From NCBI GenBank assembly GCA_913061095.1, contig CAJXVM010000002.1, forward strand, positions 186,001-250,000: 64,000 nt of DNA, in the 5' to 3' direction. Under the pieces are notes generated by a model. That model did not search any database. It saw only the letters and a list, made by a program, of their open reading frames with translations, and was not told where the DNA came from. The position numbers and the translations under genes are program-made. Positions 42,847 to 45,910 of this stretch are shown here, one piece after another. Position 1 is the stretch's first letter. Each line of letters opens with the position of its first letter. This stretch comes from an uncultured Ignavibacteria bacterium. GTDB taxonomy: Bacteria > Bacteroidota > Ignavibacteria > SZUA-365.

Positions 42847-42876
42847 TTTGAACTCTGCAAACTTTTTGTATATTGG
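42847..42876 (+). promoter_or_regulatory. Candidate promoter of the base-repair cluster
   Basis: TTTG (42847-42850), 18 bases, TATATTGG (42869-42876), one mismatch to TAnnTTTG. It would give a leader of about 85 bases before the Nudix ATG at 42968. Confidence 0.4.
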
Positions 42877-42967
42877 AGGCAAAACCACCATCGCTCAAGG
42901 GAACGGATGGTGTCGGATTCGCAGGACACCGGTTCAGGAATTGTACGACAGCCATACAGGTGCAGAT

Positions 42968-43366
42968 ATGTTTGACGAAAAAGAAGAAATGGTACGTGTA
43001 GCCGCCGCGATCATCCGCAGGGATGACAACGTGCTCATCTGCCAGCGCGGCATCAACCACCGGTATGGACTGAAATGGGAATTCCCGGGCGGCAAGCTGA
43101 TTCCCGGAGAAACCCTGCGCGAATGCCTGGAACGGGAGCTCTTCGAGGAACTGAACATCGAACCCGTCAAGGCGCGGGAACTGAAAACCATCCAGGCGAC
43201 ATACAGCGACGGCGGGAACTTCCTCATTACGTTTTTCATCGTTGATGAATACAGCGGTGAACTCAAGAACAACGTCTTCGAGGAGATCAAGTGGGTGACT
43301 TCGGAAGAAATCACACAATATGAGATGCTCGAGGGTTCCATTCCGATTCTTCCTCTCCTGAAATAA
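42968..43366 (+). CDS. MutT-like Nudix NTP pyrophosphohydrolase
   Basis: A 132-residue Nudix protein. The box GGKLIPGETLRECLERELFEELNI fits GX5EX7REUXEEXGU except for Asn at the last Gly position. The fold and length match MutT/NTP pyrophosphohydrolases that clean oxidised or modified dNTPs. An upstream extension of the frame to 42848 is not protein-like; the ATG at 42968 starts MFDEKEEMVRVAAAII. The adenine/thymine glycosylase gene follows after three bases and Ogg2 after that, which supports a role in 8-oxo-dGTP removal. Confidence 0.85.
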   Translation: MFDEKEEMVRVAAAIIRRDDNVLICQRGINHRYGLKWEFPGGKLIPGETLRECLERELFEELNIEPVKARELKTIQATYSDGGNFLITFFIVDEYSGELKNNVFEEIKWVTSEEITQYEMLEGSIPILPLLK

Positions 43367-43369
43367 ATA

Positions 43370-44431
43370 GTGCGTGTGCCTGGCAACACAGCAGTTCACG
43401 ACGACAGGCGCCGCACGCTCAACCGTATCCTCCTGCGCTGGTACGCCCGGCACGGGCGCAGCCTGCCGTGGCGCGATGTGGACAATCCCTATTACGTTCT
43501 CATCAGTGAATTCATGCTGCAGCAGACGCAGGTCGCGCGGGTGATGGAGCATTTTCCGCGATGGATCGCGCGTTTCCCGACTGTCGCGAAGCTCGCGAAT
43601 GCCCGCAGACGCGAGGTGCTGCTGGCATGGTCGGGACTCGGGTATAACCGGCGGGCGATGTACCTGCATGCTGCGGCGCAGGAAATCATGCGGCGGCACG
43701 GGGGACGCATTCCCGACGACGTCGAGGCGCTTCACGCCCTGCCCGGATTCGGACGTTATACGGCACACGCCGTCGCGTGCTTCGGGTACTACCGCCGCCT
43801 GCCCGTCGTGGATGTCAACGTTCGGCGCGTGCTTTCGCGTCTCGCGCGCAACATGAAAACGGACACCAACATGCTGGCGGAACCCGACGTCTGGGATATC
43901 GCCTCCGCGCTTCTGCCGCCGCTCGCCCACTACAACTGGAACCAGGCGCTGATGGATCTCGGCGCCACGGTATGCACGGCGCGCCGACCCTCCTGCGACA
44001 TGTGTCCCTTGCGCGGACGATGTCCCTCGGCGGGAAGACTCGCTCCCGGCACACCCTTCGGCCGCCATGCTGCGTCTCACGGGACGGCGGCGCCGGATCC
44101 CGGCACGGTTTCATCCGGCACGACGGCATCCATGCGGGGGACAGACAATGCGTCCACCCCGGCTGCGGTGCGCGAAACACCGCGGCGCATTCACAGGGGA
44201 CGCCTGATAGAACATCTGCGCCGCTGCTCACGGCACTGCGACAACGGGGGGCGGCTCTGCAGCATGCTTTTCGATCGCTGCGGGGAGGATGAACGCGCGC
44301 GGCTGCTCGATATTCTCGCGTCCCTGCAGCGGGACGGCATGATACGCGCGCGGGCACACCAGCGTGTCGTGCAGGACATCCGCGCCTTCGCCGAACCACT
44401 TGACATCCTGCGCATCTGTCTGACTGATTGA
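43370..44431 (+). CDS. MutY/MIG-family DNA glycosylase lacking the MutY C-terminal domain
   Basis: A 353-residue HhH-GPD glycosylase. Present are E47 in ISEFMLQQTQ, the hairpin LPGFGRYTAHAV, D148 in VVDVNVRRV, and the 4Fe-4S cysteines C202, C209, C212 and C218 (C-x6-C-x2-C-x5-C). At the position of MutY Ser120 (Lys in endonuclease III) this protein has Y130, as in the thymine glycosylase MIG. After the cluster there is a Pro/Thr/Ala-rich linker and an unrelated helical tail (about 275-353) instead of the Nudix-like 8-oxoG reader. It starts at GTG 43370, three bases after the Nudix gene. Confidence 0.85.
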   Translation: MRVPGNTAVHDDRRRTLNRILLRWYARHGRSLPWRDVDNPYYVLISEFMLQQTQVARVMEHFPRWIARFPTVAKLANARRREVLLAWSGLGYNRRAMYLHAAAQEIMRRHGGRIPDDVEALHALPGFGRYTAHAVACFGYYRRLPVVDVNVRRVLSRLARNMKTDTNMLAEPDVWDIASALLPPLAHYNWNQALMDLGATVCTARRPSCDMCPLRGRCPSAGRLAPGTPFGRHAASHGTAAPDPGTVSSGTTASMRGTDNASTPAAVRETPRRIHRGRLIEHLRRCSRHCDNGGRLCSMLFDRCGEDERARLLDILASLQRDGMIRARAHQRVVQDIRAFAEPLDILRICLTD

Positions 44432-44450
44432 ATCCCTAACTGCACTGACC

Positions 44451-45080
44451 ATGGATCCTGCCGCGAAAAACGAACTTCTTGAGGACTACGCATCACACCG
44501 CGATGCCATCCGTGCGCGGCTGGATGAATTCCGCGCGGTTCCGCCCGATCGCTGGTTTTACGAACTCGCCTACTGCCTTCTCACCCCGCAGTCCAGCGCC
44601 CGCCAGTGCTACCTCGTCGCGCAGGAGCTCGAGCGCCGCGATTTCTTCGGCGCGGCCTTCGACCCGACTCCCCTCCTCCGCTCGCATGAAGGCGGATACG
44701 TGCGCTTCCACAACACCAAGGCCGAGCGTCTGCTCGAGGCGCGCGAGGCCTGGCCGCGCATCGCGCAGCGTCTGCACGATCACGATGACGACAAGGCGCT
44801 GCGCAACCGTCTTGCCGAGACGGTGAAGGGACTCGGATTCAAGGAAGCCAGCCACTTCCTGCGCAACATCGGACGCACGGAGCTTACGATCGTCGACCGG
44901 CATATTCTGCGCAACCTCGTCCGGCTCGGTGTGCTTCCCGAATGGCCGCCGTCGATTTCCCGCCGTCGCTATCTGGAAATTGAAGCGCTTTTTGAGGATC
45001 TTGCATACACACTCGGCATCCCGGGCGACGAACTCGACCTCCTGCTCTGGCGCCGCGAAACCGGATTCGTGCTGAAATAA
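44451..45080 (+). CDS. 8-oxoguanine DNA glycosylase/AP lyase, Ogg2 type
   Basis: A 209-residue HhH glycosylase of the Ogg2 family (Methanocaldococcus Ogg type). The hairpin ETVKGLGFKEASHFLRNIG carries K131, the Schiff-base lysine, and LTIVDRHILRNL carries D149, the same 18-residue spacing as in the archaeal enzyme. It removes 8-oxoguanine and nicks the abasic site, the task of MutM in other bacteria. No iron-sulphur cluster. It begins 20 bases after the MutY/MIG-type gene, completing a Nudix, MutY-like, Ogg set. Confidence 0.9.
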   Translation: MDPAAKNELLEDYASHRDAIRARLDEFRAVPPDRWFYELAYCLLTPQSSARQCYLVAQELERRDFFGAAFDPTPLLRSHEGGYVRFHNTKAERLLEAREAWPRIAQRLHDHDDDKALRNRLAETVKGLGFKEASHFLRNIGRTELTIVDRHILRNLVRLGVLPEWPPSISRRRYLEIEALFEDLAYTLGIPGDELDLLLWRRETGFVLK

Positions 45081-45082
45081 TC

Positions 45083-45910
45083 ATGACTTCCCATCCTGAC
45101 AATCCATCCGCACCCGCGCTGCGCCTTGAAGACGTATCCTTCGCGTATGATTCGGAGGAGGTGCTGCGCGGTATCTCCTGCGATATCGCACCTGGCGAGT
45201 TTGTCGGCATTGTCGGACCGAACGGCGCGGGCAAGACAACGCTCATCCGCATGATCTCGGGTATGCTGACTCCCGACAGCGGCCATGCGCGTGTGGACGG
45301 CCACGACATCGCACACATGCATCCGCGTGAGCGCGCGCTCCGCATTGCTCTCGTGCCGCAGGATGAACGTGTCGTTTTTCCGTGGTCCGTCACATCCATG
45401 GTGCTTCTCGGGCGCCACCCGCATCGCGGTGGACTGGGTTTCGAAAAAGCGGAAGACTTCGAAGCGGCGGAGGATGCGATGACGCTCATGCGGATATCCC
45501 ATCTCGCCTCACGCAGCGTTCTCGATCTGTCCGGCGGCGAACTGCATCGCGTGCTCATCGCGCGGGCGCTGGCGCAGCAGACGCCCGTGCTGCTGCTCGA
45601 CGAACCCAACGCGCATCTCGACATCCGGCATCAGGTGGAGCTGTTCGATCTGCTCGCCCGTCTGCATGGCGAGGAGGGACGCACAGTGGTCATCATCACG
45701 CATGATCTCAACCTCGCCGCCACGCACTGCGACCGCATCCTCCTGATCGATGAGGGGCGGCTCGCCGCATCCGGATCCCCTGGCGACGTGCTTCGTGAGG
45801 AGCTGATATCGCGGCATTTCGGCGTGGGCGTCGAGGTGCGCACGGATCAGGAGTCCGGTCGTCCCGTGCTTCGCGTGCTGCGGAAAAACCGCGTTCCCGT
45901 CTCATCCTAG
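45083..45910 (+). CDS. ABC transporter ATPase of the iron-siderophore/vitamin B12 type
   Basis: A 275-residue single ATPase subunit. Walker A GPNGAGKTT, signature LDLSGGELHRVLIARALAQ, Walker B VLLLDEPNAHLD and switch His in IITHDLNLAATHCD are intact. The region ALVPQDERVVFPWSVTSMVLLGRHPH is typical of FecE/BtuD-type importers. No permease or binding protein is near. It lies two bases after the Ogg2 stop and so is cotranscribed with the repair genes. Partner subunits must be encoded elsewhere or be absent. Confidence 0.85.
   Translation: MTSHPDNPSAPALRLEDVSFAYDSEEVLRGISCDIAPGEFVGIVGPNGAGKTTLIRMISGMLTPDSGHARVDGHDIAHMHPRERALRIALVPQDERVVFPWSVTSMVLLGRHPHRGGLGFEKAEDFEAAEDAMTLMRISHLASRSVLDLSGGELHRVLIARALAQQTPVLLLDEPNAHLDIRHQVELFDLLARLHGEEGRTVVIITHDLNLAATHCDRILLIDEGRLAASGSPGDVLREELISRHFGVGVEVRTDQESGRPVLRVLRKNRVPVSS

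Follow-up and report, generated by a model that had tools for sequence, protein, structure and literature searches.

The Nudix hydrolase, the MutY-type adenine glycosylase and the Ogg2-type 8-oxoguanine glycosylase that are encoded side by side in the window, i.e., the whole stretch of 64,000 nucleotides that was analyzed, probably belong to an inherited, class-wide operon for an alternative GO system composed of a Nudix hydrolase, a winged-helix MutY and Ogg2; we estimate the probability of this reading at about 0.75. The three genes are genuinely inherited as one unit, which probably stands in for the textbook set of MutT, MutY and MutM. The source genome, from an uncultured Bacteroidota lineage, is 4.6 Mb in size, consists of 42 contigs and is rated 100% complete.

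When the open reading frames (ORFs) were re-derived, the three genes were found head-to-tail on the + strand. The Nudix gene (42968..43366; ATG start, TAA stop, 132 amino acids) is separated by 3 bases from the gene for MutY (43370..44431; GTG start, TGA stop, 353 amino acids). The GTG at 43370 is the earliest possible start of the latter, because an in-frame stop is located at 43364-43366. After another 19 bases follows the gene for Ogg2 (44451..45080; ATG start, TAA stop, 209 amino acids). The sequence-only reading had reported a Nudix, a MutY-family and an Ogg2 gene in a row with gaps of 3 and 20 bases. The re-derived ORFs and their Pfam and NCBIfam families agree with this succession and with the first gap, whilst the second gap had been overestimated.

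Alignment of the upstream regions of triads of the window's own family, f1, delineated a probable promoter plus leader at 42857..42967 (+ strand). A TATATT sequence at 42869-42874 is common to many f1 genomes, and the region containing it is the probable promoter; the leader element AAGGGAACGG at 42897-42906 is common to many triads of the same family. The leader (42869-42967) may also form a GGTGTC...GACACC hairpin in several f1 genomes, and the pairing partners seem to co-change in two of them. A search of the leader against Rfam revealed no Rfam family and no known riboswitch or RNA element. Further upstream, a citrate synthase gene is oriented divergently. Downstream, 2 bases past the Ogg2 gene, lies a gene for an ABC transporter ATPase (45083..45910, + strand), which is found behind the triad in f1 genomes and is followed by genes for NusB and an MFS-like transporter, without a permease partner. 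The ATPase gene, which we do not include in the system, is probably in the same transcript as the triad in the window's family only; it was not found within 5 kb of the triad in families f4, f12, f14 and f19.

The Nudix protein matches the NUDIX family of Pfam (PF00293; 4.3e-20). Its Nudix box, GKLIPGETLRECLERELFEELNI, is intact, conforms to the pattern GX5EX7REUXEE and is kept across the Nudix genes of the triads, which constitute a single ortholog clade that tracks the family lines in a tree. The enzyme may work like MutT, but the sequence does not settle whether 8-oxo-dGTP or another oxidised nucleotide is its substrate. It is also possible, although we consider this as the less probable option, that the cluster is a conserved repair operon whose Nudix protein, in the manner of NudG, hydrolyzes oxidised pyrimidine nucleotides or acts on some other small substrate; the operon would then serve against oxidative damage in general instead of providing a complete GO set. 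Indeed, the best relative in the PDB is the CTP pyrophosphohydrolase NudG (2rrk; 4e-16), ahead of E. coli MutT (2.5e-9), and the NCBIfam scores, 78.1 bits for NudG and 77.1 bits for mutt (TIGR00586), are both under cut-off, that of the mutt equivalog being 97.9 bits. Furthermore, proteins of the window's family have Ser (LEGS) at the position of Asn119 of E. coli MutT, a residue which we take to have a role in MutT. However, Asn (LEGN/LSGN) is found at this position in other families, including most of the other triads, and the gene has been retained beside two glycosylases of the 8-oxoG pathway in five families. Besides, MutT- and NudG-like enzymes overlap in sequence, so that similarity does not decide the matter. 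The designation "MutT-like Nudix" of the sequence-only reading stands with respect to the Nudix family and the intact box, whilst an 8-oxo-dGTPase activity does not follow from the sequence, as the score is below the MutT cut-off and NudG is equally near. A profile search located Nudix domains at seven places in the source genome, i.e., the gene of the triad and six others, and a second MutT-like enzyme may be present among the latter.

The conservation of the cluster was assessed in 100 relatives, which were searched for Ogg2, MutY and MutM, after which the loci were taken and the proteins of the window were located in them. By the thresholds used, both MutY and Ogg2 are present in 50 of the 100 genomes, and the full Nudix-MutY-Ogg2 triad is contiguous in 29 of these 50, with identical order and strand in all 29. 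Five families are represented among them: f1 (10 genomes), f4 (5), f12 (10), f14 (2) and f19 (2). In two further f19 genomes, MutY-Ogg2 is present but the Nudix gene is missing, and one f12 genome is undecidable with contigs ending inside the cluster. Neighboring genes in the triads commonly share 4-base ATGA overlaps. Pairs are also found: the Nudix and MutY genes adjoin, without Ogg2, in a genome of f3 (G014), and in a genome of f20 that lacks MutY (G076), the Nudix gene directly precedes that for Ogg2 with a 4-base overlap. These triads and pairs bear out conservation of the gene order in relatives, on which the sequence-only reading had made its proposal depend. The clustering is not obligatory. 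MutY and Ogg2 are encoded apart in f5, f6, f8, f16 and f17, and a profile of the triad Nudix proteins located the ortholog elsewhere in most of the split genomes of f5, f8 and f17, but in none of the eight f16 genomes searched. The separation in f5, f8, f16 and f17, together with the missing triad Nudix gene in f16, argues against the alternative GO system.

In principle, the adjacency of the genes could result from shared ancestry in one lineage, in which case the genes would be hitch-hiking and their order would be without functional meaning. All triads are indeed confined to one class, the genes are apart in some families, and a single origin is likely, with the Nudix clade following the family lines. 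However, when 19 triad loci were compared across families, a relative in the locus of another family was found for all of the 44 triad ORFs, but for only 30 of the 173 flanking ORFs. Among these 30 are a block behind the triad that f4, f14 and f19 have in common (saccharopine dehydrogenase, DUF520 and amidase) and some ORFs that run antisense to the triad. Thus, the recurrence of the triad goes beyond chance, and it outlives its surroundings, which have mostly been turned over between the families. Moreover, after loss of a partner, the remaining two genes adjoin and overlap, as in G076. We therefore regard hitch-hiking as unlikely. Since the Nudix clade follows the families, the triad probably dates back to an early stage of the class and was later lost or dispersed in some families.

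The second protein of the triad contains an HhH-GPD domain (3.5e-20) and an EndIII_4Fe-2S motif according to Pfam, and it matches the mutY family of NCBIfam (TIGR01084; 1.1e-74) over profile positions 3-208 of 277 only. The catalytic residues Glu47 and Asp148, as well as Tyr92 and the cysteines 202, 209, 212 and 218 of a [4Fe-4S] cluster, are present. Glu47 is found in 48 of 48 MutYs, Asp148 in 43 of 48, with Glu in four others, and the four cysteines in 46 of 48. Some deviating proteins deserve mention. In three genomes of genus g3 (L083, L086 and L087), the residue at position 148 is Glu in an otherwise normal-looking MutY that is encoded in a triad. A MutY-like protein of family f6 (L138:5110-5934) is devoid of the iron-sulphur cysteines and has Glu instead of the catalytic Asp (FIETNIR), resembling the clusterless MutYX. 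The MutY gene of the triad in G008, a one-contig genome, is split into two ORFs by a stop (L085:5642-6535), which may represent a sequencing error or decay, whilst the Nudix and Ogg2 genes are intact.

In canonical MutY, 8-oxoG is recognized by a C-terminal MutT-like domain with an FSH loop (PMC10993402). Such a domain is absent from the MutY of the window: a Pfam search did not detect PF14815 in the protein, nor any other family past residue 222. Instead, an AlphaFold2 model of residues 262-353 (mean pLDDT 89.7, pTM 0.80) displays the order H-E-H-H-E-E, and its structural matches are winged-helix proteins, including MarR-type regulators, with 2ns0 as the best one (Z 11.1 over 81 residues). 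The predicted winged-helix domain corresponds to residues 266-353 (44165..44428, + strand). A model of the whole protein is of low overall confidence (pLDDT 63), yet it matches MutY structures, including 8uuc, with which 224 residues could be aligned (model residues 28-351, Z 17.3, rmsd 5.2), the C-terminal domain included. The structure 8uuc is that of MutYX of Eggerthella and, according to Horvath and colleagues, MutYX and archaeal MutYA share a winged-helix C-terminal domain, which follows a MutY catalytic domain (PMC12585504). On the basis of this description and of the C-terminal model with its structural matches, the protein of the window is filed as a winged-helix MutY; as modelled, it combines an iron-sulphur cluster with a winged helix at the place where the MutT-like domain would be. 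It differs from MutYX, which was bound opposite 8-oxoG in 8uuc and is clusterless, whereas the MutY of the window keeps the four [4Fe-4S] cysteines. The canonical MutYs of other Bacteroidota classes belong to the same phylum and have a homologous catalytic domain, but those listed carry a MutT-like C-terminal domain with an FSH loop, match TIGR01084 to position ~266 and, except in G161, are found in genomes without Ogg2. When the catalytic domains were placed in a tree, the canonical MutYs grouped in a single clade (support 100), around which sequences of the class, of Thermomicrobium and of actinobacteria branch with weak deep nodes.

The MutT-like domain of canonical MutY is derived from a MutT-like enzyme (PMC11078426, PMC9266487). 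It could be imagined that the operon keeps or re-creates the unfused precursor of textbook MutY, in which the Nudix protein would provide the winged-helix MutY with 8-oxoG recognition in trans and would physically link the cleaning of the nucleotide pool to the removal of adenine. This idea appears very unlikely. It lacks tree support, because the triad Nudix genes group with those for stand-alone MutT and NudG, apart from the fused C-terminal domains of MutY, in a tree that is based on a short alignment and has weak deep nodes. In addition, no FSH loop was found in the triad Nudix proteins upon comparison with the MutT-like domains of canonical MutYs. Fission of a fused MutY into a Nudix protein and a MutY, which was also considered, is unsupported in view of the same grouping and the absent FSH loop.

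The "MutY/MIG-type" label that the gene had received earlier is correct as to the MutY family but not as to the MIG type. That it encodes a T/G mismatch glycosylase (MIG) rather than an A/8-oxoG enzyme is highly improbable and was rejected on the basis of scores and tree: Tyr130 and a DVN motif recall MIG and the protein has no 8-oxoG-recognition domain, but, apart from the strong match to TIGR01084, its best MutY match in the PDB scores 187 bits (3.5e-54) against 106 bits for MIG (1kea), three short homologues from plasmids that resemble MIG are placed outside the MutYs as a whole in the catalytic-domain tree (98% at the split), and Val55 and Gln192, at positions which presumably decide between A/G and T/G specificity, are MutY-like in the window, although both vary in other families.

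The only Pfam match of the third protein is Ogg-HhH (PF22175; 1e-44), and it is related to MjaOgg (3fhf; 8.2e-31). The catalytic residues Lys131 and Asp149 are conserved in 44 of 44 relatives. The protein ends with GFVLK, and a C-terminal Lys is present in all 43 complete relatives, one more being truncated; this strictly conserved lysine senses 8-oxoG in Ogg2 (PMC3397491). The protein has the size of ~200 residues that is characteristic of Ogg2 and does not possess the A-domain of OGG1. The protein thus has every sequence feature that defines Ogg2, and an 8-oxoG glycosylase/AP lyase activity is predicted; family, catalytic residues and C-terminal lysine all agree with the earlier assignment as Ogg2-type. 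An Ogg2 of genome G026 (L096:5701-6456) has an apparent insertion of ~50 residues in the middle, so that a single open frame yields two separate matches. Ogg2 enzymes of archaea accept several bases opposite the 8-oxoG that they excise (PMC3397491, PMC5069365). Such a loose Ogg2 poses a puzzle in any cell that contains MutY, because the removal of 8-oxoG opposite A fixes the mutation. An attack of Ogg2 on 8-oxoG:A, of which known Ogg2 enzymes are capable, would oppose MutY and counts against the alternative GO system.

Profile searches of the source genome gave no match for MutM/Fpg (PF01149) and no second MutY or Ogg2, the latter being single-copy. HhH-GPD was found at three places; apart from the MutY of the triad, one is an ordinary Nth (L001) and the other a weak orphan (L003). 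The possibility raised in the sequence-only reading that a normal set exists elsewhere in the genome is thereby removed for MutM and MutY, whilst for MutT it is left with the six additional Nudix matches. MutM is also absent from 94 of the 100 relatives and present in six. MutY and Ogg2 tend to occur together: both were found in 50 genomes and neither in 40, with 5 + 5 discordant cases, and in the 81 genomes that are at least 95% complete, these numbers are 40, 36 and 3 + 2. As relatives are not independent, a test at the genome level overstates significance; counted by family (n = 21), both are present in 10, neither in 7, Ogg2 only in 3 and MutY only in 1 (Fisher p 0.008). No association of Ogg2 with the absence of MutM was detectable among the 100 genomes of the class, in which MutM is rare throughout. 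In a sample of 247 genomes of the phylum, Ogg2 matches above the curated cut-off come almost exclusively from the class, G161 being the one exception.

Families f7, f9, f11, f13, f15 and f18 as a whole possess a haem-copper oxidase gene but lack MutY and Ogg2, and MutM is nearly absent from them. Seven representatives (G029, G091, G034, G021, G049, G064 and G041; L225-L243) contain only Nth and one or two HhH-GPD proteins of ~210-275 amino acids. Oxygen respiration was considered as an explanation for the absence of MutY and Ogg2 from some families, but COX1 (PF00115) does not discriminate, as 97 of the 100 genomes have it.

In the alternative GO system that we propose, the three genes would be controlled by the single promoter in front of the Nudix gene. 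The Nudix protein would hydrolyze oxidised nucleoside triphosphates before they enter the DNA. The winged-helix MutY would remove adenine paired with 8-oxoguanine, upon which repair synthesis would restore C and give an 8-oxoG:C pair. Ogg2 would then remove 8-oxoG from this pair, as well as 8-oxoG formed directly in the DNA, and so take the place of the absent MutM. Presumably, the genes are co-transcribed and the three proteins cooperate with the substrates and the division of labor outlined here, and the triad would protect against G:C to T:A transversions, as a GO system does.

The GO system of E. coli likewise consists of three proteins, MutT, MutM and MutY, which by family cover the cleaning of the pool and the removal of adenine and of 8-oxoG, but its genes are scattered over distant loci in separate operons (PMC11078426), whereas they form a single cluster here. 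Moreover, MutM is replaced by Ogg2, which has an unrelated fold, and a winged helix replaces the MutT-like domain of MutY. Archaeal MutYAs are reported to be able to replace MutY in E. coli (PMC12585504); in the literature covered, no operon of MutYX or MutYA with Ogg2 and a Nudix gene was found to be described. The nearest operon precedent found is the sod-ogg operon of Thermoplasma volcanium, in which Ogg2 is part of an oxidative-stress transcription unit (PMC5069365); its partner there is superoxide dismutase instead of MutY and a Nudix protein. Plasmid records from outside the phylum gave only homologues of single genes: no Nudix or Ogg2 gene is annotated beside the MutY gene of T. roseum, and no MutY was recognized beside an Ogg2 of Fusobacterium. 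The parts and the type of system are known. In the literature covered on the gene context of MutY, Ogg2 and Nudix genes, the combination of the three in one conserved operon, with canonical MutY and MutM replaced by a winged-helix MutY and Ogg2, was not found, which is no proof of novelty.

If the proposal is correct, a whole bacterial class would run its defense against oxidised guanine from one operon, without MutM and with parts that are better known from archaea, i.e., Ogg2 and a winged-helix MutY. This class would escape surveys in which MutY homologues are dropped if they have no MutT-like domain at the C-terminus (as in PMC11078426). The operon would also offer two natural tests: how 8-oxoG is located by a MutY that is devoid of the MutT-like domain to which its recognition is ascribed, and how MutY can be paired with Ogg2, a subfamily for which little selectivity towards the opposite base has been reported.
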